DNA of 64,000 bases from Bryobacterales bacterium (GTDB lineage Bacteria > Acidobacteriota > Terriglobia > Bryobacterales > UBA6623), in NCBI GenBank assembly GCA_022823865.1, contig JAJEHF010000065.1, positions 62,001 through 126,000 of the forward strand, written 5' to 3'. A model generated the notes under the pieces. The model saw only the letters and a program-made list of their open reading frames with translations, was not told the DNA's origin and did no database searches. The translations under genes were made by a program, and so were the position numbers. Each line of letters opens with the position of its first letter. Positions within the stretch are counted from its first letter, which is position 1. Positions 2,325 to 23,457 of the stretch are shown in pieces.

Positions 2325-3617
2325 GTGCAGATGTTGCGCCGCAATAGGTTCTTGGCCATGCCGATCCCGATTCCAACCCGTCCCTGGCTGCGCGCCGGCT
2401 TGGTCGTGGCAGCCTCAGCGACCCTGACTGCCCTGGGCCTGCAGTTGTACGGACCCGCCCCGTTAGAGCTGCCGACCGCCGAGGTCGAGCGCCGCGACTT
2501 CTTGCGCACGGTGCAGAGCCGCGGGGAGCTCAAGAGCGCCGAATCCGTGCAAATCACCGCGCCCCAGACGCCGAACCTGCAGATCGTCCAGCTTGCCGAG
2601 AACGGCAAGCCGATCGTGGCCGGCGACATCGTGGTGCGATTCGACGAGTCGGCCCAGGAAGACACCCTGATCGAACGCCAGACCGAGGTCCGGCAAGTGG
2701 ACAGCGAGATCGAGCAGGCCGAGGCCTCGCACGCCATCACCGACGAGCGCAACGAGATGATGATCATGCAGGCGACGTACAACGTCGAGCGTGCAGGGCT
2801 GGAAGCCAGCAAGCAAGAGATCTTGGCCGAGATCGAGGCGGAGAAGGCCAAGATCGACGTGACCATCGCCGAAGGGGAACTCCAAAAGACCGAGACGACG
2901 GCCGAGGCCAGCGACATGTCCCAAGCGGCCGACATCGAACGCTTGATGGAACGCAAGGGCAAGGCCGAGAGGGATCTGAACCTCTCCCGCACCTACCTGC
3001 GCAGCATGGTGCTGCGCGCGCCGAGCGACGGCATCGTCCACATCCTGCCGAACAACCGCGCCCAAGGGTCGTTCGGAACGGCCCGCCCGCCGTTCCAGGA
3101 GGGCGACACGGTATGGACCGGGGCGGCGATCGCCGAGATCCCGAACCTCGAGTCGCTGCGCGTGGAATTTCGCGTGGACGAGGTGGACCGCGGCCGCGTG
3201 GGCGAGGGCCAGGAGACCCGCATTCGCGTCGATGCGGTCCCCGACGTGGTGCTGGACGGCTCGGTGAGCTGGCTGAGCCCGATCGCCACGCTGGTGTTCA
3301 ACCGCCTGCCGCCCGAGAAGAACTTCCCGGCCTTCGCCGCGCTTGACAAGATCGACGAGCGCCTGCGGCCCGGCATGAGCACCACGGTGGAGATCATCGT
3401 GCAGCGCATCGAGGACGTGCTCGTGATTCCCAGCAAGGCGTCGACCCAGATTGACGGCAAGCCGACCGTCTTCGTCCAAGACGGGGCCACCTACCGGCGC
3501 GTGCCGATCGAGGTAGCCGCCACCAACGGCACCGAGATCGTCGTCGCCGCCGGGCTGCAAGAGGGCGACGTGATCGCCCTGGAGAATCCCGAGACTTCTC
3601 AGGGACGAACCCTATAG
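2325..3617 (+). CDS. HlyD/MacA-type periplasmic adaptor of an efflux system
   Basis: Membrane-fusion adaptor of about 430 residues: one N-terminal membrane anchor, a barrel-sandwich half (VERRDF..TVQSRGEL), a long heptad-rich coiled coil (about 115-215), the second barrel-sandwich half (LRAPSDGIVHIL) and a beta-barrel domain ending VLVIPSKA. Such proteins link an inner-membrane ABC permease to a TolC channel. The start is uncertain: GTG at 2325 lies 5 nt after a TACATT hexamer; ATG at 2331 and 2358 are alternatives. First gene of a four-gene operon with a second adaptor, a permease and TolC. Confidence 0.85.
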   Translation: MQMLRRNRFLAMPIPIPTRPWLRAGLVVAASATLTALGLQLYGPAPLELPTAEVERRDFLRTVQSRGELKSAESVQITAPQTPNLQIVQLAENGKPIVAGDIVVRFDESAQEDTLIERQTEVRQVDSEIEQAEASHAITDERNEMMIMQATYNVERAGLEASKQEILAEIEAEKAKIDVTIAEGELQKTETTAEASDMSQAADIERLMERKGKAERDLNLSRTYLRSMVLRAPSDGIVHILPNNRAQGSFGTARPPFQEGDTVWTGAAIAEIPNLESLRVEFRVDEVDRGRVGEGQETRIRVDAVPDVVLDGSVSWLSPIATLVFNRLPPEKNFPAFAALDKIDERLRPGMSTTVEIIVQRIEDVLVIPSKASTQIDGKPTVFVQDGATYRRVPIEVAATNGTEIVVAAGLQEGDVIALENPETSQGRTL

Positions 3618-3636
3618 CGACACCGGAGACAAAACC

Positions 3637-5757
3637 ATGACGAAGCTACTGTTGCGGATTGCGATCGTCTTCGTAGCCGGGGCACTCGCGGCCGGCGGCT
3701 ACTTTGTGTGGCAGAGCCTGCCCGAGGACGAACAGCGCTTCGCCCTCGCCGAAGTGCAGCGGGGCGACTTGGTCGTGAAGACCTACCTGCGCGGCGAGCT
3801 GCGGGCCGTGCGCTCCCTGACCCTGACGGCGCCCAATATCGGAACCCAGTCCCAGATCACGCAGCTGGCACCGATGGGCTCCCTCGCCACCCGTGGCGAC
3901 CTGATCTTCGAACTGGACGACTCCGAGCGCGTGGCGGCGCTGGAAGACAGCCTGCTGACGGTGGAGCAGATTCAGGAGAACCTCAAGAAGGCCGAAGCCG
4001 AGTTGGAGATCCGCAAGAGCCAGGACGAAGTCGAGATCGTCCAAGCGAATTTCCAGGTGCGGCGAGCGGAGCTGGAGGTCCAGCGCAACGAGCTGCTGGC
4101 GGATATTGACGCGCGCAAGAACGAGCTCACCCTCGAGGAAGCCCGGCGGCGCAAGCAGAAGCTCGAGGCGGACATCGAGAACCGGCTCAAGCAGCGCGAG
4201 TCCGAACTGGCGGTGCTGCGCGAGCAACTGAACAAGGCCCAGCTGGACGTGGACCGCGACAAGCGCCGGATCGCGCAGTCGCGCGTGCTCGCGCCGCTGA
4301 CAGGGCTGGTGGCGATCCTCCAGAACCGCTCCGGCGGGCGCGGCGGCTTCGGGCAGTCGCTGCCCGAGATCCGCGAAGGGGACCAGATCCCGGCGGGCAT
4401 GTCGGTGGCGCAACTGCTGGACTTGTCCGAAATGGAGTTGCTGACCCGCGTGGAGGAGTCCGAGCGGGCCAACCTGCGCGAGGGGCAAGAGGTCCTCATC
4501 CGCCTCGATGCCATCCCGGACAAGACCGTGACGGGCACGATCAAGCGTTTGGGCAACACCGCGTCGGCGAACATCTTCTCCGGCGAAGCGGTCAAGAAGT
4601 TCGAATGCGTCATCGGCATCGACATGGAGCAGTTGCTCGAAAACATCGGCGCCGAGCGCGATCGCATCGAGCGGATCATGGCGACGGCGCGTCAGAACGC
4701 ATCCGTGGGCTACGGGGCGCGACGCGGGAACGCCGCCGCGCGAGCCCCGCGCGGCGACGCGGCCAGCGCGCCGCCGGAAGGCCGCGGCCAGGGACAGCGC
4801 GGGGAAGGCGACCGAGACGGCCAGGCGGGGGCACGCGGCGGGGGACAAGCGCCCACGCGCCAGCAAGCTCAGAACGGCGGACCGGGCGGCGGCCAGCGTG
4901 CCCAGGGACAACGGCAGGGGCCGGGCACCGGGCAGCAGGGCGATCGCGCCCAGCGCGGCGGCGGGCAACAACAGCAGCGCGCCGGGGGCCAGGCGCAAGG
5001 CGGGCAGGGCCAGCGGGGCGGACAGGGCTTCGACCCCTCGCGCATCCTGAGCCGCCTGCCGGAAGAGGCCCGCAAGCAGGCCGAAGACCTGCTCAAGGGC
5101 CGCAGCCCGCAAGAGCTCAGCAATGAAGAGCGCCAGCAGTTCCGCCAGATCATGCAAGCCGCCGGGGGCGGCGGTCGCCAAGGCGGCGGTGGTCCGGGTG
5201 GCGGGTTCGCAGGCCCGGGCGGTGGATTCGGAGGGCCGGGCGGCGGATTCGCGGGCCCGGGCGGCGGATTTGGAGGCCCGGGCGGCGGATTCGGCGCTGC
5301 AGGGGGCGCGCCCGGCGGTGGCGCGGGCGGCGGCGGACGAGGCGATCGCCAGCCTCAAACCGCCACGGCGGCTTCGTCCGGATCGGAGTTCAGCGAGTCC
5401 GAGCGGGCGGGGGCGCAGCTTCCCGAGCCACCCCAGCAGGGCTCGGACGTGGAGGTGTTGCTCCGCCCAGGCTTGCTGGCCGATGCGGAGGTGACGGTCG
5501 AGCACATCCCGGACACGCTCTACATCCCGTACCAGGCGGTGTTCGAAGAGGGCGCGCAGAACATCGTCTACGTGCTGGAGTCCGGGCGGCTCCGGGCCAG
5601 GCGTGTCCAGCTCGGGCGCAGGTCTGAGTCCCAGGTGGCTGTCGTGGACGGGCTCGCCGAGGGCGAGCTGATCTCGCTCTATCGCCCCGACTCCGCTCCG
5701 GCTTCGCAGTCCAAGACTCCCGAGTCCTCGACCGGGCCGGCGTTCCCGGGAGGCTGA
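3637..5757 (+). CDS. HlyD/MacA-type adaptor with large Gln/Gly-rich insertion
   Basis: Second adaptor of the operon, 706 residues against the usual 350-450. Residues 1-340 hold the anchor, lipoyl-like halves and a long charged coiled coil (about 105-215). The extra length is a low-complexity insert at about residues 355-590, rich in Gly, Gln, Arg and Pro, which includes a perfect-frame 7-residue tandem repeat. The conserved adaptor fold resumes near residue 605 (VEVLLRPGLLADAEV, then LYIPYQAVF). A GGAGA ribosome-binding site precedes the ATG. A short folded-looking piece within the insert (about 465-510, DPSRILSRLPEEARKQ) breaks the low complexity. Confidence 0.85.
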   Translation: MTKLLLRIAIVFVAGALAAGGYFVWQSLPEDEQRFALAEVQRGDLVVKTYLRGELRAVRSLTLTAPNIGTQSQITQLAPMGSLATRGDLIFELDDSERVAALEDSLLTVEQIQENLKKAEAELEIRKSQDEVEIVQANFQVRRAELEVQRNELLADIDARKNELTLEEARRRKQKLEADIENRLKQRESELAVLREQLNKAQLDVDRDKRRIAQSRVLAPLTGLVAILQNRSGGRGGFGQSLPEIREGDQIPAGMSVAQLLDLSEMELLTRVEESERANLREGQEVLIRLDAIPDKTVTGTIKRLGNTASANIFSGEAVKKFECVIGIDMEQLLENIGAERDRIERIMATARQNASVGYGARRGNAAARAPRGDAASAPPEGRGQGQRGEGDRDGQAGARGGGQAPTRQQAQNGGPGGGQRAQGQRQGPGTGQQGDRAQRGGGQQQQRAGGQAQGGQGQRGGQGFDPSRILSRLPEEARKQAEDLLKGRSPQELSNEERQQFRQIMQAAGGGGRQGGGGPGGGFAGPGGGFGGPGGGFAGPGGGFGGPGGGFGAAGGAPGGGAGGGGRGDRQPQTATAASSGSEFSESERAGAQLPEPPQQGSDVEVLLRPGLLADAEVTVEHIPDTLYIPYQAVFEEGAQNIVYVLESGRLRARRVQLGRRSESQVAVVDGLAEGELISLYRPDSAPASQSKTPESSTGPAFPGG
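5194..5295 (+). repeat. 21-bp tandem repeat inside the second adaptor gene
   Basis: Four full copies and one partial copy of a 21-bp unit encode PGGGFAG and PGGGFGG in alternation, so the higher-order period is 42 bp. Units begin at 5194, 5215, 5236, 5257 and 5278. They lie in frame at about residues 520-553 of the adaptor. Copy-number change by slippage would keep the reading frame. Confidence 0.9.
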
Positions 5758-5760
5758 TGA

Positions 5761-7014
5761 ATGCAACTTCCCAACGTAATGCCCGAACTCCAGATGGGGA
5801 TCGGGAGCCTGCTGGCCCACAAGCTGCGCACGCTGCTGACGATGCTCGGCATGATCTTCGGCGTCGGCGCCGTGGTCGCCATGCTGTCGATCACCGAGGG
5901 CGCCCGGCAGGAGATGATCCGCTACATCGACCTGCTCGGGGTGAACAACATCGTGGTGGAGGCCAGCGAGGCGCCGGATCGCGACACGCTGATCGAGGTG
6001 CGCCAAGTCTCGCCCGGGCTGACGTTCCGGGACGCGCGCGCGATCGCTGCGAACACGCCGAACATCGCCAGCCTGTCCGAGCGCAAGACGTTCCAGCCTA
6101 CCAGCCTGCTGCCCAGCATGGACGGCGACCTCCCGACGCTGATCGGGGTCCGGCCGAACTACACCGACATCTACAGCATGTCGCTGATCGAGGGCCGCTT
6201 CTTCACCGATGACGAGCACTCCCGCTCGGCTCCGGTGTGCGTGCTCGGAGAGCGGGCCAAGATCAGCATCCTGGGCTACGGCAACGCGGTGGGCAAGTAC
6301 GTCAAGGTCAACGAGGTGTGGCTGCACGTGATCGGCGTCACGGCGCCGCAGGCAACCGCCGAGTCCGACGTGGAGGGACTGGAGGCCGACGACCGCAGCA
6401 ACGTCATCCTCGCTCCGCTGAACTCGGTCATGCGCCGCTTCGAGGACAACAACAGCTACCTCAAGGACGAGATCGACGGCATCTACATCCGAGTCCAGCC
6501 CGAAGCGGACCCCATCGAGACGTCGCAGATCGTGCGGGCCATCCTGAACACGACGCACAACGGCGCCAGCGACTTCTCCGTGCTGGTGCCGGCAGATCTG
6601 CTGGCGCAGCGCGAGCAGCAGCAGCTGGTGTTCCAGATCGTGATGATCTGCATCGCGGGCATCTCGCTGCTGGTGGGCGGCATCGGCATCATGAACATCA
6701 TGCTCGCGACCGTGCTCGAGCGCACGCGCGAGATCGGCATCCGGCGCGCTATCGGAGCGCGCCAGCGCGACATCGTGCGGCAGTTCCTGATCGAGGCGGT
6801 GATGATATCCATCCTCGGCGGCCTGATCGGCATCGCGGCCGGCTTCGGCGGCTCCAAGATCATCGCCGCCATCGCCGGCTGGGCGACTGTCGTGACGGTC
6901 ATCTCGATCGTAGTCTCGTTCGGCGTCTCGGTATTCATCGGACTGCTGTTCGGCATCTACCCCGCCATGCAGGCGGCCAAACTCGACCCCATTGAGGCCA
7001 TCCGCTATGAGTAG
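5761..7014 (+). CDS. MacB-type ABC transporter permease without ATPase domain
   Basis: This 417-residue protein has the MacB/FtsX permease plan: a membrane helix at about residues 22-46, a periplasmic MacB_PCD domain (about 50-275), and three C-terminal membrane helices (about 290-315, 340-365, 375-405). The loop ERTREIGIRRAIGARQRDI after the second helix is the usual coupling segment to an ATPase. No Walker A motif is present and no ATPase is encoded nearby, so the nucleotide-binding subunit must come from elsewhere. The ATG lies 3 nt after the upstream stop; the downstream TolC gene overlaps its end. Confidence 0.88.
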   Translation: MQLPNVMPELQMGIGSLLAHKLRTLLTMLGMIFGVGAVVAMLSITEGARQEMIRYIDLLGVNNIVVEASEAPDRDTLIEVRQVSPGLTFRDARAIAANTPNIASLSERKTFQPTSLLPSMDGDLPTLIGVRPNYTDIYSMSLIEGRFFTDDEHSRSAPVCVLGERAKISILGYGNAVGKYVKVNEVWLHVIGVTAPQATAESDVEGLEADDRSNVILAPLNSVMRRFEDNNSYLKDEIDGIYIRVQPEADPIETSQIVRAILNTTHNGASDFSVLVPADLLAQREQQQLVFQIVMICIAGISLLVGGIGIMNIMLATVLERTREIGIRRAIGARQRDIVRQFLIEAVMISILGGLIGIAAGFGGSKIIAAIAGWATVVTVISIVVSFGVSVFIGLLFGIYPAMQAAKLDPIEAIRYE

Positions 7015-8662
7015 TGCTCTTCGCAAAGCCCTCCCCGCCCTGGCGTTCGCCCTGGCCGCCAGCCCCGCCGCGGCCCAGTTCGCGACGTTTCCGGACGGAG
7101 CTTACTTCCGGGAGCAGTGGCAGGCCGCCCCGTACGACGTCGAAGTCGGATCCGTCGGGCAGCTGGAGGACTACGTCGTTGACGGCAAGCTGGAGCTGAA
7201 TCTGAACTCTTACTTGCAGCTGGTGATGGCCAATCACCCGGACGTGCAGATCCAGATCCTGACCGTGCTCCAGTCGCAAAATTCGATCCAGGCCGCCTTC
7301 AGCCCGTTCGACCCGACGCTGGCGCTGAACTTCAACGCGAACCGCTCGACGAATCCGTCGCAGGACCAGCTGCAGGGCGGCGACGTGATCAGCTCGCTGC
7401 GCCAGAACGGCGGCTTTACCTACCGCCACACGCTGGACACGGGCACGAACTACCAAATCGGCTTCACGGGCCTGAAGAGCGCCAGCAGCAGCTCGTTCCG
7501 GACGTTCAACCCTTCGATCCAAGACACGCTGCAGTTCAGCATCTCGCAACCCCTGCTGCGCGATCGCGGGCGAGGCATCCAGCGCATCCCGATCCTGATC
7601 GCGCGGGCCCGCTTTGACAACTCGCAGTCGACGGCCAGGACGCGCATTCTCGCCCTGGTCGCGCAAGCGGAGAACACCTACTGGCAGGTGGTGTCCAACC
7701 GCGAGTCCCTCAATGTGCAGGAGAACAACCTGGACCTGCGGCGCAGGTTCCTGGAGCGCTCGCAGCGCGAGCTGGAACTGGGCGCGATCTCCCCGCTGGA
7801 CATCTACCAGCCCGAGCAGAACTACGCCAACGCCCAGGTGAGCGTCACGCGCGCCCGCTACCAGCTGCAGCAGGCGGAAGATCGCGTGCGTCGGCAGATC
7901 GGAGCGGACCTGGACCCCGAGATCCGCAATCTGCCGCTGGTGCTGACCGAGTCCGCCGACCCGCCGATCTACATGCCGGCGTTCGAGCCGGAGGAGTCCA
8001 TCCGCAAGGCGACTCTGATGCGCCCCGAGATCCGGCTGCGCAGGACGACCCTGGCGATCGACGACTACAACATCAAGCGCGACACCAACGCCCAGCGCCC
8101 CGACCTCGCCCTGACGGCCCAGTACAGCGCGACGGGGCTGGGCGGAAACCTCTTCCAAAACTCCGCATTGGGTGCCGGCTCGACCCAGCTCATCTCAGCC
8201 AGCGGCTTTCCTGCGGCGATGGGCCAGCTGTTCCGATTCGCGTTCCCCACCTATAGCGTGGGGTTGCAGCTGAACCTACCGCTGCGCAACCGGCGCGCGG
8301 CGGTGAACCTGGCCAACTCGGTGCTGCAGAAGAAGCAGAACATGTACGAACTGCGCGCCTTGGAGCAACAGGTCCGGCTCGAGGTCTTGAACGCGATCAC
8401 GGGCGTGGAGCTGAGCAAGGCCGCCATCCAGCAGGCCGCCGTGGCGCTGGATTTCTCCCAGAAGCGCTTGGATGCCGAGCAGCGCAAGTACGACCTGGGC
8501 GTGAGCACGGCCTTCATCGTGCTGGACGCGCAGGATGACCTGGTGCAGAGCCAGGCCGACCTGCTCCAGGAATCGATCGGCTACCGCCGAGCGATGGTGA
8601 CCCTGATGCAGGCAACCGGGGAACTGTTGGAAGCGCGGGGCATCACGCTGGACTTCAACTAG
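7007..8662 (+). CDS. TolC-family outer-membrane efflux channel
   Basis: The 551-residue product has a signal peptide cut near AAAQF and two related halves of long alternating helices typical of the outer-membrane efflux protein family. The start at ATG 7007 overlaps the permease stop (ATGAGTAG); a TTG five codons earlier is possible but lacks support. With the two adaptors and the permease it forms a tripartite exporter spanning both membranes. The tRNA-Pro promoter overlaps its stop codon. Confidence 0.88.
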   Translation: MSSALRKALPALAFALAASPAAAQFATFPDGAYFREQWQAAPYDVEVGSVGQLEDYVVDGKLELNLNSYLQLVMANHPDVQIQILTVLQSQNSIQAAFSPFDPTLALNFNANRSTNPSQDQLQGGDVISSLRQNGGFTYRHTLDTGTNYQIGFTGLKSASSSSFRTFNPSIQDTLQFSISQPLLRDRGRGIQRIPILIARARFDNSQSTARTRILALVAQAENTYWQVVSNRESLNVQENNLDLRRRFLERSQRELELGAISPLDIYQPEQNYANAQVSVTRARYQLQQAEDRVRRQIGADLDPEIRNLPLVLTESADPPIYMPAFEPEESIRKATLMRPEIRLRRTTLAIDDYNIKRDTNAQRPDLALTAQYSATGLGGNLFQNSALGAGSTQLISASGFPAAMGQLFRFAFPTYSVGLQLNLPLRNRRAAVNLANSVLQKKQNMYELRALEQQVRLEVLNAITGVELSKAAIQQAAVALDFSQKRLDAEQRKYDLGVSTAFIVLDAQDDLVQSQADLLQESIGYRRAMVTLMQATGELLEARGITLDFN

Positions 8663-12662: not shown

Positions 12663-13823
12663 TTACAGGCGCACGCCCATGTTGCGGCCGCGCAGCGTCA
12701 CTGTAAGCTCAAGCTCCGCGTCCCCGCGCAAGACCCGCAGGGCCACCCGGTCCCCGGCCAGCTTGAGCGAGAGCGCCTGCTGCATCGAGGTCTTGTCCGT
12801 GACCGCCGCGCCGTCGACCTCAATGATCACGTCCCCGCCCCATGGCACGCGGTAGTTGCCGACGATGATGTCCCGGCTCGCCCCGCGCAGGCCCGCCTCG
12901 GCAGCCGCAGAACCCTTGGCGACGTCCGTGACGAGATACCCGGTCGTGGGAAGGCGCAGCGCGCGCGACCAGCGCCGCGTCAGGAAGAAGCCCTCTACCC
13001 CCATGTCTTGCGGCGGCTGCGCCCCGCCCTTGACAAAACGCAACAGCGCCTTGGCGCGGTTGATCGGCATGGCGAAGCCGATGCCGATGTTGCCGCTGGG
13101 GCCGTAGATGGCCGTGTTCACCCCGATCACGTTGCCGCTGGAATCCAGCAGCGGCCCGCCGCTGTTGCCGGGATTGATGGCCGCGTCGGTCTGGAAGAGA
13201 TCTTTCAGCACCCCGCTGCGATCCTGGATGGAGCGTCCGGTCGAACTGATCACCCCCGTGGTCAGGGTGCCTTCCAGGCCGAACGGGTTGCCGATCGCCA
13301 GCACCTTCTGGCCCACCTTGACCCCGTCGGAGTCGCCGAGCGCGAGAAACGGCATCGGGGCTTCGGGGCGAATCTGGATCAGCGCCAGGTCATTGGCCGG
13401 ATCCGTGGCCAGCACGGTGGCCTTGTAGCGGTTGCCGTCGTCGTCCTCGGTCAGCGGGCTGACCTCCAGCTCGGCGCTGCCCTGAATGACGTGGAAATTG
13501 GTGAGGATGCGCCCCTCCGCATCGATCAAGAATCCGGATCCGGTCGATTCGCTGGGATAGACTTCCAAGAACCAATTGCGCTGCAACACCGTGCTGGTGA
13601 TATGCACCGTCGCCGGACTCGCCCGGTTGTAGATCTCGATGTTCGAGAGCTCGTCGGCGTTGAGCGTCGAATCCGCCTCGGTCCAAAACGGCTCGTCGAA
13701 CACGACCGGGGCCACCCTGCCGAGCTGAACCGGCCAGGTGGACCAGAGCAGGAGCGCGAACACGACCAAGGCGCCGCAGAAGATTGCGCGCACAGCGCCC
13801 CTAGCTGGTCTGGACATCTGCAT
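12663..13823 (-). CDS. Membrane-anchored HtrA/DegP-type serine protease with PDZ domain
   Basis: The 386-residue protein has an N-terminal membrane anchor (about residues 11-30), a trypsin-like domain with the full triad (His111 in NFHVI, Asp145 in DPANDLAL, Ser221 in GNSGGP) and a single PDZ domain (about 275-386, GYLVTDVAKGSAAAEAGL). It degrades or monitors misfolded envelope proteins. Its start lies inside the end of coaE, with a GGGGG-containing ribosome-binding site; a second in-frame ATG at 13817 is equally possible. Co-transcribed with coaE. Confidence 0.9.
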   Translation of the reverse strand: MQMSRPARGAVRAIFCGALVVFALLLWSTWPVQLGRVAPVVFDEPFWTEADSTLNADELSNIEIYNRASPATVHITSTVLQRNWFLEVYPSESTGSGFLIDAEGRILTNFHVIQGSAELEVSPLTEDDDGNRYKATVLATDPANDLALIQIRPEAPMPFLALGDSDGVKVGQKVLAIGNPFGLEGTLTTGVISSTGRSIQDRSGVLKDLFQTDAAINPGNSGGPLLDSSGNVIGVNTAIYGPSGNIGIGFAMPINRAKALLRFVKGGAQPPQDMGVEGFFLTRRWSRALRLPTTGYLVTDVAKGSAAAEAGLRGASRDIIVGNYRVPWGGDVIIEVDGAAVTDKTSMQQALSLKLAGDRVALRVLRGDAELELTVTLRGRNMGVRL

Positions 13824-14439
13824 GCGCCCCCTTCTTCTCGGCCTCGCTGCGCAGCTGGCGGTAGACCTCGCGGACTTGCTCCAACGTGCGGGCTTCGCTG
13901 CTGCCCGTGTCGATCACGTAGTCAGCGTACTTGCGCTTCTCGTCCAGCGGCATCTGCCGGCCGAGCCTCGCTTCGGCCTCGGCGCGAGTGGAGCCTTCGC
14001 GCCGCACGAAACGATCGATCTGAGCCTCGCGCGGGCAGGCCGCCAGGACCAAGCGATCATAGCGGCGGTAGCTGCCGGTCTCGACCATGATCGCCGCTTC
14101 CACCAGAGCGACCGCGTCCGGGTCGCGCTGCGCGGTCTGCCGGAAAAAGTCTTCCACGCGCTCGAAGACACGCGGGTGCACGATCGCGTTGAGGCGCTGC
14201 AGGTCGTCCTCGCTTGCGAACACGACCCTGGCCAACGCCTTGCGGTCGATTGCGCCGTCCGCCTGCAGCACTTGCCCGCCGAAGGCGGCGGTCACCTCCC
14301 CGAGCACGGCCGCGTCTTCCGCCAAGATCGCATGCCCGAGCCGGTCCGCCTGCAAGACGACGCAGCCGAGACGCTCGAACTCGCTAGCGGCGAAGCTCTT
14401 GCCGCTAGCGAGGCCGCCCGTCAAGCCGACTCTCAGCAT
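13801..14439 (-). CDS. coaE: Dephospho-CoA kinase
   Basis: This 212-residue kinase catalyses the last step of coenzyme A synthesis, phosphorylating the 3'-OH of dephospho-CoA. It has the P-loop GLTGGLASGKS at the N-terminus, QADRLGHAIL, VHPRVFERV and the lid region ARLGRQMPLDEKRKYADYVIDT. Length is normal (about 200). It overlaps htrA by 23 nt and lies just downstream of tRNA-Gln on the same strand. Confidence 0.95.
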   Translation of the reverse strand: MLRVGLTGGLASGKSFAASEFERLGCVVLQADRLGHAILAEDAAVLGEVTAAFGGQVLQADGAIDRKALARVVFASEDDLQRLNAIVHPRVFERVEDFFRQTAQRDPDAVALVEAAIMVETGSYRRYDRLVLAACPREAQIDRFVRREGSTRAEAEARLGRQMPLDEKRKYADYVIDTGSSEARTLEQVREVYRQLRSEAEKKGAHADVQTS

Positions 14440-14607: not shown

Positions 14608-16017
14608 CTACTGGTAGCCTTCGGTGACGACAGGCAAGCCGCTGAGCAGAATCTCCTCGCCGGCCTGCAGTCCCGCTCCGATTAAGGCCTCGGTGTCGCT
14701 GACATCCTGCACGCGGACCTCGCGGCGCAGAAACTGGCCGTCGCGGTGGACGTAGACGATGCTCGATCCTTGGCCGTCCGCGCTCCGGAGTGCCTCGCGC
14801 GGCACAAGCACTCCCTTCGGGGAATTCGACGCCCGGATGTCGACGCTGGCTGACAAGTCCGGCAGGATGCGCTCATCATGATCCTCTATCAGGATGCGCA
14901 TGGGGATGTGCTTGATGAACGCGCCGGTCTGGCCCCGGCTAAACCTCGAGCCGCCCGATGAGGAGCTCGCCATCGCACCCAAGTTCACGACCCGTCCCCG
15001 GAACCGCTCGCCCGGATACGCGTCGAGTTCGACCACCGCCTCGTCGCCGATGCGGATGGACTGCGCATCCACCTGATTGACCGACGCACCGACGACCATC
15101 TGCGACACGTCTACGATGCGCATGAAGAGCGCCCCGGGATAGATCTGGTCGCCCTCGTTGGCTTGGGAGAACTGGCCGCCCCGGCCGAACAGCGTCTCGT
15201 GGACGATCATGCCCGGGATCGGAGCCTTGACTTGAAGCCGATTAAGGTCGCGCACGTGACGGCCCACGTGCAACTCTTCTTCGCGCACAACCAGTTCCTG
15301 ACCGCGAATGCTTGCGTCGTGGACAACTTCCTTGATCCTGGCCTCTTCTTCGAGCTGGTCCCAAGTGGCGCGAGCCTCCTCCGAAACGTTTTTCAGCACC
15401 TCGGCCTCGATCTGAGAGCGTACCTCCGCAGTCTTCAGATCCAATAGCGCCTTCTGGTATTCGGCCTTGGCGGTCACCCGCGCCTGGCGTTCGGTCTCTT
15501 TGAGAATCTGAACGTCGGCGATGTGTTTCTTGAAGTTCGACTGCTCCAGGGCCACGTCTGACTCGACATCCGCGATATGATCCTCGAGCCACCTCAGCTC
15601 GAATTCCGCCACGACAGCCCCTGCCTTGACGATGCTGCCAGCAGGCGCAAGGGACATGATGGTCAGGTCGGCTCTGCCGGCATCGCGCGGGCCGCGCATC
15701 TGGGGCACGCGAATCGCAGCGAAGTTCAGTGTTTCGATTGTCCCGCCGACGCGCAAGGACTTCAGCAGTTCCCCGCCGGTGGCCACGGCCAGCCGGGCTT
15801 GGGAACCCGCGCCTGAACCTGAAGAGGTGTCCACACCGCGATTGGCCAGGGCCCACATCGCCAACGCAGTCACCAGCGAAGCGACCAAGCACAGGCCCGC
15901 GATGAGCCCGACGCCGGGCTTGCGGGGCTGCCCGGGAGGACTGGGGGGCGCGACCGGCTGAGGACGCCGCTCGATCTCAGGAGCTTGTGGCAGTGGAGAA
16001 GGGTTGCTAGTAGACAT
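14608..16017 (-). CDS. HlyD-type periplasmic adaptor (duplicated copy 1)
   Basis: The 469-residue adaptor has a Pro-rich cytoplasmic N-terminus, one membrane helix (about residues 35-58, LIAGLCLVASLVTALAMWAL), a lipoyl-like half, a long coiled coil (about 140-235) and a beta-barrel domain (FRGRVVNLGAMAS). It resembles RND/ABC-exporter adaptors, but no permease or channel is adjacent. The start MSTSN at 16017 is preferred because the duplicate copy starts at the equivalent codon; an upstream in-frame ATG at 16053 has no counterpart there. Confidence 0.85.
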   Translation of the reverse strand: MSTSNPSPLPQAPEIERRPQPVAPPSPPGQPRKPGVGLIAGLCLVASLVTALAMWALANRGVDTSSGSGAGSQARLAVATGGELLKSLRVGGTIETLNFAAIRVPQMRGPRDAGRADLTIMSLAPAGSIVKAGAVVAEFELRWLEDHIADVESDVALEQSNFKKHIADVQILKETERQARVTAKAEYQKALLDLKTAEVRSQIEAEVLKNVSEEARATWDQLEEEARIKEVVHDASIRGQELVVREEELHVGRHVRDLNRLQVKAPIPGMIVHETLFGRGGQFSQANEGDQIYPGALFMRIVDVSQMVVGASVNQVDAQSIRIGDEAVVELDAYPGERFRGRVVNLGAMASSSSGGSRFSRGQTGAFIKHIPMRILIEDHDERILPDLSASVDIRASNSPKGVLVPREALRSADGQGSSIVYVHRDGQFLRREVRVQDVSDTEALIGAGLQAGEEILLSGLPVVTEGYQ

Positions 16018-16067
16018 GCTCGCTCGTCCGTCGCGGCCCAGCCGACGGTGCATTTTGGGCCATGTTG

Positions 16068-16115: not shown

Positions 16116-17525
16116 TTAGTAGTGGCCTTCCGTGCTGGCAGGCAAGCCGCCGAGCAGAATCTCCTCGCCAGCCCGCAGGCCCGTTTCGATCAAGGCCTCG
16201 GTGTCGCTGACATCATGCACGCGAACCTCGCGGAGGAGGAATTCGCCGTCCCTGTGAACGTAGACGAAACTCGCTGATTCCCCGTCCGCGCTCCTGAGCG
16301 CCTCCCGCGGCACCACCACTCCCTTCAGGCGATCGGATGCGCGCACGTCAACGCTGGCCGACAGATCCGGCAGGATGCGCTCGTCGCGATCCTCGATCAG
16401 GATGCTCATGGGGATGTGCTTGATGAATGCGCCGGGCTTGCCCCGGCTAAACTTCGAGCCGCCCGATCCGGAACTCGCCATCGCACCGATGCTCACGACC
16501 CGCCCCCTGAACTGCTCGCCCGGATACGCGTCCAGTTCGATCACCGCCTCGTCGCCGATGCGGATGTACTGCGCATCCACCTGATTGACCGATGCACTGA
16601 CGACCATCTGCGACACGTCGACGATGCGCATGAAGAGCGCCCCGGGATAGATCTGGTCGCCTTCCTTGGCCTGGGAGAACTGCCCGCTCTTGTTAAACAG
16701 CGACTCGTGCACGATCATGCCCGGGAGCGGAGCCTTGACCTGAAGCCGCTCCAGATCGCGCACGTGGCGGTCTACGTGCAGCTCCTCTTCGCGCACGATC
16801 AGTTCCTCGCCCCGAATGTCTGCGCCGTGGACAGCCTGCTTGATCCTGCCCTCGTCTTCGAGTTGGCCCCAAGTGGCGAGAGCCTCCTCGGAAACGTTCT
16901 TGAGCACTTCGGCCTCGATCTTAGAGCGCACCTCCGCGGTCCTAAGGTCCAAGAGCGCCTTCTCGTATTCCGCCCTAGCGGTCACCCGCGCCTGGCGCTC
17001 GGTCTCCTTGAGTATCTGCACGTCGGCGATGCGTTTCTTGAGATTCGACTGGGCCCTGTTCACGATTGACTCGCGATCCTCGATGTGATCCACGAGCCAC
17101 TTCAGCTCGAATTCCGCCACGACAGCCCCTGCCTTGACGATGCTGCCAGCGGGCGTAAGGGACATGATCGTCAGGTCGGCCCTGCCGGAATCGCGCGGGC
17201 CGCGCAGCTGGGGCACGCGAATCGCGGCGTAGTTCAGCGTTTCAATCGTTCCGCCGACGCGCAAGGACTTCAGCAGTTCCCTTTCGGTAGCCACGGCCAG
17301 ACGGGCCTGGACACTAGCACCTGAGCCCGACGAGGTGTCCACGCCGCGATTGGCAAGGGCCCACATCGCCAATGCGGTCACCAGCGATGCTACCAAGCAC
17401 AGGCCAACAATGAGCCCGGTGCTGGGCCTGCGGGGCTGGCCCGGGGTGCCGGCGGGTGCGACCAACTGTGGGCGTGCCTCGATTTCAGGCGCTTGCGGCA
17501 GCGGCGACGGATTGATAGCAGACAT
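16116..17525 (-). CDS. HlyD-type periplasmic adaptor (duplicated copy 2)
   Basis: The 469-residue paralogue of the preceding gene has the same domain order and near-identical blocks (SLRVGGTIETLN, QILKETERQARVTA, FIKHIPM). Differences concentrate in the coiled coil and the C-terminal barrel. In this copy an earlier in-frame ATG at 17570 sits only 4 nt after TATAAT, too close to be within a normal transcript, which supports MSAIN at 17525. Both copies lack a dedicated inner-membrane partner in the window. Confidence 0.85.
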   Translation of the reverse strand: MSAINPSPLPQAPEIEARPQLVAPAGTPGQPRRPSTGLIVGLCLVASLVTALAMWALANRGVDTSSGSGASVQARLAVATERELLKSLRVGGTIETLNYAAIRVPQLRGPRDSGRADLTIMSLTPAGSIVKAGAVVAEFELKWLVDHIEDRESIVNRAQSNLKKRIADVQILKETERQARVTARAEYEKALLDLRTAEVRSKIEAEVLKNVSEEALATWGQLEDEGRIKQAVHGADIRGEELIVREEELHVDRHVRDLERLQVKAPLPGMIVHESLFNKSGQFSQAKEGDQIYPGALFMRIVDVSQMVVSASVNQVDAQYIRIGDEAVIELDAYPGEQFRGRVVSIGAMASSGSGGSKFSRGKPGAFIKHIPMSILIEDRDERILPDLSASVDVRASDRLKGVVVPREALRSADGESASFVYVHRDGEFLLREVRVHDVSDTEALIETGLRAGEEILLGGLPASTEGHY

Positions 17526-17574
17526 GATCGCTCGTGTACCGGGCAAGGCCGACGGAGCGCTATAGGACATTGCG

Positions 17575-17580
17575 ATTATA
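17575..17580 (-). promoter_or_regulatory. Consensus -10 box TATAAT for adaptor copy 2
   Basis: A perfect TATAAT on the minus strand, 49 nt before the chosen start codon, equivalent to the box upstream of copy 1. Confidence 0.5.
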
Positions 17581-17677
17581 GGCCCTGCGGCGGCCTGCGG
17601 CCACGCGCGCGGCATGAAGTGCCTCGGGCGGCATCATTTTCGGGGCTGAGCGGGCGGATTTTCGACTTAGTCGGGAC

Positions 17678-18568
17678 TCAAGCGCGCTCGCGGCCATCGA
17701 AGGATAGGCGGTCGGCCTCGATCGCGTCCCGGTTGAGCAGCACGATGTGCTGATTTGCCGGCTCGCGCGTCACGGGGTCTCGGTCCAAGCCCAAGCGCTT
17801 CATCGTGTAGTACAGGAAGGCGCGGCGGACGCGCAGCGTGACTATGCCATCCTGCATGCCGTAGTCGAGCGCGATCACCTCTTTCTGGGACTCGGACAGC
17901 CCCGGGTGGGGGCCGATATCCAAGGCGACGTGCTCGTGCCAGTCGCGATCCGTGTCGGGATCGTTGTCGGGCCGCCGCGTGGCCCGCGTGTCTATGACCC
18001 GCGCCAGCAGGAAATCCTTGTACAGGCGATCCCTGTCGCAGAATGCGCGGATGTGCCAGCGAAAGCCATCGAAACCGAGCGCATGCGGCGCGATCCAACG
18101 CCACTCCGGCGTCGGCGCGCTGAGGGACTGGTACCTGATCTCGAGCGCCAGCTCTTCGCGCAACGCCTCCAAGACGGTCTGCAGTATGGCCGGATCGACG
18201 AGGCGCGACGGGGCCGGGGCCGCGTCGAACACGGGGTATTCCATGGCCCAAGACTCTTGCTTGGTCACGATGCCGTCGGATAGCGCGCGCAGCTGGTTCA
18301 AGTAGATGGAAGCGTCTAGCTTGAGGAACAGCGGCTTGAAGCTGTCGCTGCGCAGGTAACTCCTGGCGCTCTTGTCATAGATCATGTTCTCCGGTGCCAG
18401 TTTCAGGTACCGGTTCAGGTCGGTTGAGGCTTGGTTGACCGAGACCCCGAAGATCTTCATCAGGTCGCCGCGGTTCATCCTGCCTTCGAAATAGAGCCGA
18501 AACTCAATGAATTCCAGCCGCTTCTCGACGCCCCATCGCAGGTTGGACTCTCTATTCGAACTGCGCAC
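17678..18568 (-). CDS. WYL-domain transcriptional regulator, BrxR/CapW-like
   Basis: The 296-residue protein has a winged-helix N-terminus (RLEFIEFRLYFEGRMNRGDL, then FGVSVNQASTDLNRY), a linker (AYD-like NMIYDKSARSYLRSD), a WYL domain (ALEIRYQSL, PHALGFDGFRWHIRAF) and a C-terminal WCX-like extension. This architecture and the N-terminal sequence match BrxR/CapW regulators that repress BREX and CBASS phage-defence operons. Here no defence operon is adjacent; its neighbours are efflux adaptors downstream and the divergent DUF1549 gene. GTG start with GGGAGAA 5 nt upstream. Confidence 0.85.
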   Translation of the reverse strand: MRSSNRESNLRWGVEKRLEFIEFRLYFEGRMNRGDLMKIFGVSVNQASTDLNRYLKLAPENMIYDKSARSYLRSDSFKPLFLKLDASIYLNQLRALSDGIVTKQESWAMEYPVFDAAPAPSRLVDPAILQTVLEALREELALEIRYQSLSAPTPEWRWIAPHALGFDGFRWHIRAFCDRDRLYKDFLLARVIDTRATRRPDNDPDTDRDWHEHVALDIGPHPGLSESQKEVIALDYGMQDGIVTLRVRRAFLYYTMKRLGLDRDPVTREPANQHIVLLNRDAIEADRLSFDGRERA

Positions 18569-18841
18569 TTCGTTTCTCCCGTGTTCTAGCTGCCGCCGTT
18601 CGCTCGCGCTATCCTTCGGCGCGCCTGTAATCTAGCGCCCGAAGCCACAATGCCGCGCCTAGGGGCGCGGTTCGCAAACCACCCCTCTATTGTAAGGGTT
18701 GTTATGAAGAGTCTGCGGAGCCGTCGCGCAAGCTGCTCCGGGCTGCCCGGCTGGCGGCGGTACGCTCGTTTTTGCTTGATCTTCGCCCGGATCGACGCGC
18801 TGCCGAGGCCGCCAGAAGAGTCGATTCCGGCCTTCCGCTGG

Positions 18842-18847
18842 TACAAT
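18842..18847 (+). promoter_or_regulatory. -10 hexamer TACAAT, 6 nt before a GTG start
   Basis: TACAAT ends exactly 6 nt before the GTG at 18854, predicting a leaderless transcript. No convincing -35 box. Confidence 0.45.
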
Positions 18848-18853
18848 CGCACT

Positions 18854-21800
18854 GTGGGCCGAGCAGTAACTCACGCGTTGCTCGCTGGCTTGGCCGCGGC
18901 CGCCGGCAGCGCCGCGACACTGCCCTCCGAACGCGTTGACTACAACGACGACGTGCGTCCGATTCTCTCGGATCGCTGCTACAGCTGCCACGGCCCGGAC
19001 CAGGGCCAGCGCCAAGCGGGGCTGCGCCTAGACCGCGAATCCGGCGCGTTCGGCGCGGCTGCCAGCGGCGCCATGCCAATCGTGCCGGGCGAGCCCGCCA
19101 AGAGCGGCCTGCTCCAACGGGTCACCAGTGCGGATCTAGCGCGGCGCATGCCGCCCACCTACATGGGCCACGACCCGCTCAGCGAGGGCGAGATCGAGAC
19201 CCTGCGGCGCTGGATCGAGCAAGGGGCCCAGTGGGAAAGCCACTGGGCGTTCAGCCCGCCCGCGCGCCCCGACCTGCCGCAGCCCGCCAAGGCCGGGCTG
19301 CACCCTATCGACGCGTTCGTCGCCGACAGGCTGGCCCGAGAAGGACTCGCCCCCGCCGCGCCGGCGGACCGACGCACGCTCGCTCGCCGGGCGGCGCTGG
19401 ATCTTACCGGCCTGCCTCCAGATCCGGAGGTGGTGAAAGAGTTCGCGGCAGATCCGGCGACAGTCGCTTACGAGAGGCTGCTGGACCGCCTGCTTGCATC
19501 GGCCAGCTACGGGGAGCATCTGGCGGGCATGTGGCTGGACGCGGCACGCTATGCCGATACGAACGGCTACCAGACCGATGGCACCCGCTCGATGTGGCGC
19601 TGGCGCGACTGGGTGATCGAGGCCTTCAATCGCAACGTGCCGTTCGACCAGTTCACGCTCGAGCAACTGGCGGGTGACATGCTCCCGGACGCCTCCCGGG
19701 CGCAGGTCGTCGCAACCGGGTTCAACCGCAACCACCGCACGACCGCGGAGGGCGGCTCTGTCAACGAGGAGTTCCGCGTGGAATACGTGGCCGACCGGGC
19801 CGAGACCACGGCCACGGTCTGGCTGGGCCTGACGCTGGCCTGCGCGCGCTGCCACGACCACAAGTTCGACCCGCTGTCGCAGCGGGAGTACTACCAGTTC
19901 TTCGCCTACTTCAACAACGTCGAGGAAAAGGGCATGGTCTGGAACTTCGGCAACGAAGATCCGCTGCTGCACGCCCCGACGTCGGAACAAGAAGCGCGGC
20001 TGGCCACCCTGGCGGCCGGGCTGGCCGACGCGCGGGAGCGCTGGGACGCGCTAGAGCCGCAGATCGCCCGCGAGCAAGCGGCATGGGAGGCTGGCCTGGC
20101 CGACACCCCGGACCTGGACTGGTCCCCCGCCCGCGGCCTGCGGGTGCACGCGCCGTTCGATGGCCGGCTCGGCACGAGCAGCTTCCGGGGGGGCTCGATT
20201 GACGGAAGCAGCGCCCCGGAGCGGGTGGAGACCGAGTTCGCCGACGGACAATCCGGCACGGCGGCGGTGTTCGACGGCCGGCGCTATGCGGACCTGGGCA
20301 AAGTCGGCATCTTCAACTACATGGACCCCCTCACCGTCTCGGCTTGGATCCGGCCCGAGACCGGCGACGACGGTTCGATCGTCGCCTCCATGGGGGAGAA
20401 CCCGATCGGCAACGGCTGGGGCCTCTTCGTGCGCGGCGGCAAGCTCTGGTGGCACATGTCGCAACGCTGGAGCGACCTGAGCATGCGCTTGGCGAGCCAG
20501 CGCCGGATCGAGCCCGGTCGCTGGCAGCACGTGCTGCTGACCTACGACGGCAAGCGCAAGGCCAAGGGCGTCCGCATGTACATCGACGGCCGCGAGCAGG
20601 AGTTCGAGGTCCTGTTCAACAACCTCGACTGGCCCTCGCAAAGCAACGCGAGCCTCAAGGTGGGCGGCGGCGGCGGCCCCGACAACCGCTTCTCCGGACG
20701 GATCGACGAGGTGCGCGTGTACGGCCGGGCCCTCGCTCCGGCGGAGGCCAGGGCACTGGCTTCGACCGCGCCGTTGGGCGCCCTGGCAGCGATCCGGCCC
20801 GGCGACCGCACTCCGGCGCAGCGGGACAAGCTGCGCAGCGCATTTCTCGACCTGGCCGCATCAACGAGCATCCGCAAGGCAAGCTTGGCCTTGGCCGAGG
20901 CGCAACGGCGACACGACGCCTTCCTCGACACCGTTCCCACCGTGATGGTGATGAAGGAGGGGCCGTCGCGCCAAGCCTATGTGCTCGAGCGCGGCCGTTA
21001 CGACCTGCACGGAGATCCCGTCGAGGCGGCCATTCCAGAAGCCCTGGTCGGCGCGACCGGCCCTGGCATCGCGAACCGGCTCGAGCTGGCGCGCTGGATC
21101 GTCAGCCGGTCCAACCCGCTGACGGCGCGCGTGATCGTCAACCGGCTCTGGCAGATGCTGTTCGGCGTCGGCTTGGTCAAGACCGTCGACGACTTCGGCT
21201 CCCAGGGCGAGGCGCCGTCCAACCAGGCGCTGCTCGACTGGCTGGCAGTCGAGTTCATGGACTCGGGCTGGGACGTCAAGCGGCTGCTGAAGACAATCAT
21301 GCTCAGCGCGACCTACCGGCAGTCCTCGCACGTGGACGCGGAACTGCTCGAGCGCGACCCCGAGAATCGACTGCTCGCTCGCGGACCCCGGTTCCGCCTG
21401 GCAGCGGCGACGATCCGCGACCAGGCACTCGCGGCCGCAGGGCTGCTGCAGCAGGACATCGGCGGGCCTTCGGTGCGCCCCTACCAGCCGCCCGGACTGT
21501 GGGAGGAGGTCTCCGGCAACGCCTACCAGCCCGGCGATGGCCCCGAACTGTACCGGCGCAGCCTGTACACCTACTGGAAGCGCACGGTGGCACCGCCGTC
21601 GATGATGAACTTCGACGCCTCCGACCGGGAGGTCTGCACGGTCCACGTCAAGCGCACCAACACGCCGCTGCAGGCGCTCAACCTCATGAACGACACCACC
21701 TTCGTGGAAGCGGCGCGACACCTCGCGGATACGGCATTGCGCGGCGATGCACAGAGCCCCGCGGCGCGCATCGACCAGATGTACCTGAAAGTGCTGGGCC

Positions 21801-22009
21801 GGTTGCCGGGACAAGACGAGCGGGATATCCTTGAAGACCTGTACCGCGCCTATGCGGACCGGTTCGACTCGGATCTCGACGCGGCCGAAGCGTACCTCGC
21901 GGTGGGTGACTCGCCATGGGACCCGCGCTCCGACCCGCGGGAGCTGGCCGCCTACGCCGGCGTAGCCAGCCTCGTGCTGAACCTGGACGAAGCGGTGACG
22001 AAGCAATGA
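18854..22009 (+). CDS. PSCyt1-DUF1549-LamG-DUF1553 exported protein
   Basis: About 1,051 residues. A signal peptide (to about residue 22) is followed by a planctomycete-type cytochrome c domain with CYSCH heme motif (residues 42-46), a DUF1549 domain ([14 protein letters not shown] onward), a concanavalin/LamG-like insertion (about 425-630) and a DUF1553 domain ([22 protein letters not shown]). The family is abundant in Planctomycetes and Solibacter relatives and lacks a proven reaction; the heme domain suggests redox-linked or surface carbohydrate work. GTG 18854 begins the signal peptide; an upstream ATG would add 68 poorly coding residues. Overlaps the DUF1501 gene by 4 nt. Confidence 0.88.
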
Positions 22010-23457
22010 CGCCGGAAACTCACGCCCCAGAGATCGACACCCGGAGGCACTTCTTCGGCAAGGCGGCGAGCGGCGTCGGAGCCATCGCCCTGGCCCACCT
22101 GCTAGGTCGCGACCTGAACGCATCCGATGCGCCCAAGCCCGCCGTGGGCGGCTTGGACGGCCTGCCGCACTACGCGCCCAAGGCCAAGCGCGTGATCTGG
22201 CTGTTCCAGTCCGGCGGGCCCTCGCAGCTCGAAACGTTCGATCCCAAGCCGGGCCTGGCCATGCTGCGCGGGCAGGACCTGCCGGAGTCGATCCGGAAGG
22301 GCCAGCGGCTGACCACGATGACCTCCGGCCAGAGCAGCTTTCCGCTGGTCGAATCTGCGTTCGGCTTCCAGCAACACGGCGAATCTGGCGCCTGGATCAG
22401 TGACTTGCTGCCGCACACGGCCAAGATCGCCGACGACATCAGCATCGTGCGCTCGATGCATACCGATGCCATCAACCACGATCCCGCAGTCACGTTCCTG
22501 CAGACCGGGGCGCAGATCGCGGGCCGTCCCAGCATGGGCGCCTGGCTGAGCTACGGGCTCGGCAGCGAGTCCAGCGACCTGCCCGCCTTCGTCGTGATGA
22601 TCACGCAGGGCACGGGCGGCCAGCCGCTCTACGACCGGCTGTGGGGCTCGGGCTTCCTGCCGACGCGCTACCAAGGCGTCAAGTTCCGCTCGGTGGGCGA
22701 CCCGGTCTTGTACCTGTCCGACCCGGCGGGCATCTCGCGCGACCAGCGCCGCACGTTCCTCGACGCGCTGGCCAAGCTCAACCGCAAGCAGTTCGAGGAG
22801 TACGGAGACCCCGAGATCGTCACGCGCATCGCGCAGTACGAAATGGCGTTCAAGATGCAGCGCTCGGTCCCGGAGCTGACCGACCTGTCCGGCGAGCCCG
22901 AGCGCGTGTTCGACCTCTACGGAGAAGGCGCCCGCCGCCCCGGCACGTATGCCTACAACTGCCTGCTGGCACGTCGGCTGGCCGAGCGCGGCGTGCGCTT
23001 CATTCAGCTCTACCACCGGGGCTGGGACCAGCACGCTTCGCTCAAGCAGGGCATCCAGCGCCAGACCAAGACCACCGACCAGGCCTCGGCGGCGTTGGTG
23101 ATGGATCTCAAGCAGCGCGGCCTGCTCGACGACACGCTCGTGGTCTGGGGCGGCGAGTTCGGGCGGACCGTGTACTGCCAAGGCACGCTGACGGAGTCGG
23201 AGTACGGCCGCGACCACCATCCGCGCTGCTTCTCGATCTGGATGGCCGGCGGCGGCGTCCAGCCCGGAAAGACCTACGGCGCTACCGACGAGTTCAGCTA
23301 CAACATCACCGAGAACCCAGTCTCCGTGCATGACCTGCACGCCACGATGCTGCACCTGCTAGGGGTCGACCACACCAAGCTGACGTTCAAGTTCCAAGGG
23401 CGGAGATTCCGACTCACCGACGTCCACGGCAACGCCGTCAAGCCATTGCTGGCCTGA
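22006..23457 (+). CDS. Tat-exported DUF1501 (sulfatase-fold) protein
   Basis: The 483-residue protein has a Tat signal ([23 protein letters not shown]) and the DUF1501 alkaline-phosphatase-like core: [65 protein letters not shown]. The start overlaps the DUF1549 stop in ATGA, so the pair is translationally coupled, as in other genomes where both families are adjacent. Role unproven; its fold and metal-like His/Asp motifs suggest hydrolysis of phosphate or sulfate esters in the periplasm. Confidence 0.9.

Follow-up and report, generated by a model that had tools for sequence, protein, structure and literature searches.

What does a regulator of the kind known from anti-phage operons do beside envelope genes? 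The question is raised by a gene on the minus strand at 17678..18568 of the window, a 64,000-nucleotide stretch of a Bryobacterales genome (contig JAJEHF010000065.1 of assembly GCA_022823865.1). A first-pass annotation had read it as an orphan WYL regulator of the BrxR/CapW type, perhaps recruited to control envelope genes or perhaps left over from a lost defence island. The reading frame is open at exactly these coordinates and contains the N-terminal sequence quoted in that annotation. It encodes 296 amino acids from a GTG start, and a GGAG lies 7 bases 5' of the GTG.

By sequence, the protein belongs to the BrxR/CapW family. Its residues 4-284 align with residues 3-284 of the CBASS repressor CapW of S. 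maltophilia (7tb6, E 5.3e-74). Full-length homology also extends to CapW of P. aeruginosa (7tb5, 7.3e-54) and CapW 9c5g (3.7e-64), the CapW identities lying between 36 and 42%, and to the BREX repressor BrxR of Acinetobacter (7t8k, 3.1e-48) and E. fergusonii (7qfz, 1.8e-33). These E-values exclude chance. CapW is laid out as wHTH-WYL-WCX according to Blankenchip et al. (PMC9122588), and the full-length alignment therefore upholds the three-domain layout that had been claimed for the protein. Pfam recognizes the WYL domain only (residues 128-193, 38.7 bits), and an NCBIfam search of the protein gave no match. In the genome (6.07 Mb, 94% complete), the regulator is the only match above the Pfam WYL cut-off.

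The phylogeny agrees with the proposed kinship. In a 35-row tree whose root was set with five other Acidobacteriota WYL proteins (of 14 partial WYL loci, L053-L066, nine were tried as outgroup and five used), the regulator falls inside a clade that holds CapW and BREX-linked rows (split 100/99). In view of a program warning about long branches, and of uncertain deep forks within this clade, we claim no finer placement there. The eight WYL rows of the genus form one clade (99/96), which joins 11 alphaproteobacterial proteins at 98/94. The S. maltophilia (Sm) CapW is not among the nearest rows, and the link to BrxR runs within the same family through two rows from BREX plasmids (L073 and L074), to which the regulator is 30-34% identical. 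The residues by which Sm CapW contacts DNA (Arg32, Ser42, Gln45 and Ser47; PMC9122588) are kept in 8/8 genus rows, as are Tyr145, Phe185 and Arg189 of the ligand site (Sm CapW numbering). The one ligand-site difference from CapW is Arg183, which is a lysine in all eight; among the 16 other rows that come from outside Acidobacteriota, five have the same exchange, including the BREX-linked L071 and L074.

The regulator differs from both namesakes in its surroundings. We called 100 genes with our own script over 29.5-145.9 kb of the contig (G000:C82) and scanned 89 of the proteins against PADLOC at 1e-5; the remainder consists of seven genes at a distance of more than 50 kb and, closer in, four that are small or lie at an edge. 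No multi-gene defence system was found among these 89 proteins, within ~50 kb on either side. Unlike CapW, the regulator has no CBASS in the scanned vicinity and is kept vertically beside an adaptor and PSD1; unlike BrxR, it has no BREX gene within ~50 kb. Twenty PADLOC families matched, with one protein each. Two were WYL models, and the others included viperin-like, RT-protease, PDC-S09, PDC-M35A, PDC-S12, DUF4238, E1-E2, E2, LmuA and CARF. The viperin-like match is probably a radical-SAM protein (L069:2-523), the RT-protease match probably the trypsin-domain HtrA, and the DUF4238 match probably the gene at L069:3195-4139, 49 kb from the regulator. As far as the scan extends, the description as an orphan is accurate. 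A functional label as BREX- or CBASS-associated depends on defence genes in the operon or within 50 kb and is withheld. The L069 region itself (126-146 kb of the contig) carries an integrase-like gene, recognized by eye, as well as the DUF4238 gene and sparse coding, and is a possible mobile region ~49 kb from the regulator.

Orphan members of the BrxR family are already known as a statistic. Picton et al. (PMC9122601) report 347 BrxR homologues, 338 of them in Proteobacteria. Defence genes lie within 50 kb downstream of 164/347 and within 50 kb on either side of 212/347, and ~39-52% of the genes in this 2022 survey lack a known defence system nearby. The available text of that paper nowhere uses the word stem 'acidobacteri'. 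Among the open-licence papers listed in literature searches, judged by title and the start of the abstract, no vertically kept, non-defence BrxR/CapW locus is described.

Many of the closest relatives of the regulator come from defence operons. These nearest kin are alphaproteobacterial proteins with 53-60% identity, accompanied in such operons by a type III methyltransferase in Shinella and by DUF499, DUF1156, Hma, Druantia-like or BREX genes in Sphingomonadales. Where the next same-strand gene of these kin was called, it overlaps the regulator gene or follows within 30 bases, whereas 152 bases separate the window's regulator from its adaptor. Counting a PADLOC model match or a BREX annotation within 4 kb as a defence-type gene, 14/19 tree rows from outside the genus have one. 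The single assignments are rough, given the wide cross-matching among helicase and methylase models. Twelve of the 19 have the gene downstream on the same strand: a DrmD-like helicase (L020), DruE (L021), DUF499 (L023), an HmaB-like/DUF1156 methylase (L024, L025), HmaA (L030), BrxC (L026, L071), BREX (L073, L074), a type III methyltransferase (L070) and a weakly matched type III restriction gene (L075, 9e-6). It is divergent in 2/19, as a cytosine methylase (L031) and as an E1-E2/JAB gene of CBASS type (L077), and the WYL protein of L077 is sister to Sm CapW (100/99). Five relatives were not counted. The contigs of L022 and L028 run out within 0.9 kb, the next gene of L027 is cut by the contig end (its start resembles that of L024), L076 has a divergent LmuA-like gene (2e-10), and the next gene of L072 had no match.

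The neighbours in the window are those that had been named in the annotation. Downstream on the same strand lie two membrane-fusion (adaptor) proteins of HlyD/RND type that are 82% identical: adaptor 1 (MFP1, HlyD_D23/HlyD_3) at 16116..17525, whose start at 17525 comes from our own gene caller and which has no adjoining transporter gene, and its tandem copy, adaptor 2, at 14608..16053. The minus-strand genes continue with a dephospho-CoA kinase, CoaE (13801..14439), at the conserved edge of the block, and an HtrA-like trypsin-PDZ protease (12663..13823); the pairing of CoaE and HtrA is found outside the genus too. The 152 bases between the regulator stop and the adaptor start (17526..17677) contain, by eye on the minus strand, a TATAAT-like hexamer. 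Divergent from the regulator is PSD1 (18650..22009, plus strand), a PSCyt1-DUF1549-LamG-DUF1553 protein whose true start probably lies well downstream of 18650, followed on the same strand by a DUF1501 protein (22006..23457). PSD1-type (DUF1549/DUF1553) stretches number 95-123 per genome in the 11 genus genomes, some genes giving two stretches. A separate MacB-type efflux set occupies 2325-8662 of the window, ~6 kb from the orphan adaptors, and consists of two adaptor genes, a MacB/FtsX permease and an outer-membrane efflux protein.

The position of the regulator has been stable. The order HtrA-CoaE-adaptor(s)-PSD1-DUF1501 holds in 11 genus genomes as far as the contigs reach, and the WYL gene stands between adaptor and PSD1 in 9/11, being split over two contig ends in G005. 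The gap between WYL gene and adaptor is ~140-160 bases in most genus genomes and ~500 in G003. One in-frame stop each was seen in the G009 adaptor (G009:C13:189-1664) and in the G006 PSD1 (G006:C172:39520-42690), from assembly error or decay. The sister pair G002 and G007 has the same gene order and no WYL match, and groups with the window's species in the SecA tree (97/98). By count, this absence is explained equally well by one gain and one loss or by two gains. One gain followed by one loss is the best reading, given that the WYL rows form a single clade and share their position. The tree of the genus WYL rows and that of the neighbours have the same branching.

Outside the genus, no WYL match was found in the genomes of 50 relatives, seven of which belong to the same family. 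Within this family, CoaE and HtrA stand together in 3/3 CoaE regions examined, and SurE occurs without the rest of the block in 3/3 SurE regions examined. The conserved block was thus apparently assembled at the base of the genus. Across a sample of 396 Acidobacteriota genomes, 18 match, including the window's own; the other 17 comprise three relatives of full or almost full length (38-43% identity) and 14 that match in the WYL domain only.

The regulator gene also seems to have been copied together with the adaptor. Decayed WYL pieces stand directly before three other adaptor copies, namely the tandem copy of G003, one on contig C103 of the window's genome (G000) and one on contig C7 of G001. 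The G003 piece is 73-84% identical to G003's own WYL gene and has one stop and one frame change. The remnants on C103 and C7 are 95% identical to each other in DNA, and each stands with an adaptor of a G003-like lineage (L045, C103, 2400-3640; L049, C7, 7850-9100). In the adaptor tree, a G003 adaptor is the sister of those on C103 and C7 (100/100). WYL gene and adaptor thus appear to have passed jointly from one lineage to another, and the L045/L049 pair is a probable transfer within the genus. The DNA 5' of these two loci looks transposase-like, and before the C103 remnant it may be of IS1380 type. These remnants link WYL gene and adaptor in evolution, and the extra WYL copies were not kept.

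Comparisons of close species show strong purifying selection on the copy that lies between adaptor and PSD1. This copy is full length and free of stops in all eight genomes that have the gene on one contig. Its dN/dS is 0.07-0.11 (window against four close relatives), in the range of HtrA (0.07-0.09, three pairs) and DUF1501 (0.09-0.12), and below that of PSD1 (0.15-0.22) and MFP1 (0.21-0.27, three usable pairs, some of which may compare different tandem copies). Values with frame trouble (MFP1-G004 and SurE-G001) were dropped. Across the genus, WYL identity is 61-65% and dS is near or above 1.

Constraint extends into the DNA before the gene. All comparisons of leader, gap and four-fold sites used the same four genomes of the close species group; G010, whose leader contains a run of N, was left out of the leader comparisons. 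Only 5/60 columns vary in the 60 bases 5' of the start codon, against 50/133 four-fold sites of the WYL gene (Fisher p 1.3e-5), and 21/120 vary in the 120 bases (p 4e-4). The WYL-adaptor gap varies like four-fold sites (63/155 columns, p 0.63) and differs from the nearest 60 leader columns (p 1.4e-6). What is conserved is the WYL gene's own promoter-leader (18569..18694, minus strand), right up to the start codon, and not the gap upstream of the adaptor.

Candidate control elements can be read in this leader. By eye, a -10-like hexamer, TACAAT, lies at 18694-18689, and a consensus promoter scan of 18569..18694 found no promoter. In close relatives a 20-bp imperfect dyad adjoins the TACAAT. The imperfect dyad GTGGTTTGCGAACCGC at 18682-18667 is a candidate operator, and a second dyad, CCGCGCC-CCTA-GGCGCGG, lies at 18670-18653. 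In brxR, an 11-bp inverted repeat directly follows the -10 (Picton et al., PMC9122601), and Blankenchip et al. (PMC9122588) describe 19-24-bp palindromes spanning the -10. A search for inverted-repeat operators upstream of 18568 and of 17525 had been suggested in the annotation. The best inverted repeats 5' of the regulator do not stand out, since in three genomes 32, 36 and 36 out of 60 shuffles did equally well, and the best match to the candidate dyad in the window's adaptor gap has 7/16 mismatches. The candidate dyad is absent from G003, G006 and G008 (best 6, 5 and 6 of 16 mismatches). Genome-wide, it has one exact site, at its own promoter, and four sites with two mismatches, five in all as against 12 for the reversed control. 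No dyad common to the genus and the alphaproteobacterial kin was seen when their inverted repeats were compared. An RNA element in the leader is not supported, with an energy z of -0.83 and covariation in one of 40 pairs, and an Rfam search of the leader gave no match at E up to 1.

The reading that we favour, and to which we give an even chance, is that a BrxR/CapW-type factor from an anti-phage operon was recruited as an autorepressing chromosomal regulator beside the adaptor and PSD1-DUF1501 genes. Its arrival between an adaptor and the PSD1-DUF1501 pair would date from the base of the genus or earlier, and it would have stayed at that site as a transcription factor. On the model of BrxR and CapW, a homodimer would bind its own promoter-leader (~18569-18694) through the winged helix and repress its own transcript, and a ligand in the WYL pocket would release it. 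The adaptors and/or PSD1 may be repressed by read-through or by blocking of the shared divergent region. We infer the defence-operon origin, the repression, the autoregulation and the ligand release. The sequence evidence indicates autoregulation in the first place; that the envelope genes are controlled as well is plausible. Direct control at the adaptor gap is argued against by the gap's own TATAAT-like hexamer and its four-fold-like variation. Moreover, G002 and G007 keep adaptor and PSD1 without the WYL gene, so neither gene depends on the regulator.

Of the two readings offered in the first-pass annotation, recruitment has gained the better support, from the fixed position in 9/11 genomes, the agreement of the WYL tree with the neighbours and the strong purifying selection. 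The lost island was rejected as the leading reading, the gene being intact and selected with no multi-gene system within ~50 kb. If an anti-phage operon had arrived before the species of the genus diverged and its effectors had since disappeared, the regulator left over would account for alphaproteobacterial nearest kin, many in defence operons, and for defence-type genes within 4 kb of 14/19 relatives from outside the genus. A remnant should decay, however, and this gene has not; it is full length in 8/8 genomes with a dN/dS of about 0.1, and the extra WYL copies decayed where the original did not. At the locus the known genes also leave little room, with ~140-160 bases between WYL gene and adaptor in most genomes (~500 in G003), and we consider the remnant reading quite improbable. 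Still less probable, in our judgement, is a selfish or neutral passenger, an autorepressing gene hitch-hiking with adaptor genes. Its absence from G002 and G007, best read as a loss, and the decay of extra copies in at least two places are what a passenger would leave behind, but the strong purifying selection, the identity kept across the genus and the constrained leader are not.

More weight is due to a trans-acting stress regulator that, like DriD or PafBC, senses DNA damage as ssDNA, regulates itself and acts elsewhere, so that its location is incidental. PafBC and DriD bind ssDNA, and with SiwR they are WYL transcription factors with non-defence roles (PMC10693628). The protein being the only one in the genome above the Pfam WYL cut-off, the constraint on its own leader and not on the adaptor gap, and the sister pair that keeps both neighbours without it all fit such a role. 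The protein matches CapW and BrxR, however, and hardly PafC (13.9 bits), SiwR, DriD and PafBC being another subfamily by sequence. The putative operator has fewer sites genome-wide than its reversed control, and WYL and adaptor remnants stand together at further loci. We regard action in trans as a doubtful possibility. Within the recruitment reading, a rewired CapW/BrxR ligand switch, by which an infection or damage signal would derepress the adaptor and surface genes, is unlikely; if it were true, the cell would answer phage or DNA damage by an envelope change and not by a killing operon.

The BrxR orphans might be what is left of decayed islands, belong to undescribed defence systems or serve as regulators in other roles. 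For the last of these the locus makes a good example, combining a single position, vertical inheritance across a genus, strong purifying selection and a sister pair in which the gene is naturally absent. With its nearly unchanged pocket, the protein may also aid the search for the family's ligand in the absence of a toxic operon. Luyten et al. (PMC9122589) describe separable roles of gene and protein, and the literature on WYL domains and efflux includes a paper on PafC and drug resistance.

Two observations concern more distant DNA. The sequences 5' of the WYL gene in L020, L022, L024 and L030 have in common, by eye, a palindrome-like promoter sequence around ACTTTTTGGAAGGTTCCGAAAAGT, and this region is possibly the operator of those alphaproteobacterial relatives. 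In a predicted viral contig from IMG/VR (L130, 5040-10887), a WYL relative with 54% identity precedes a similar module, with weak methylase/HmaB PADLOC matches (8e-8).
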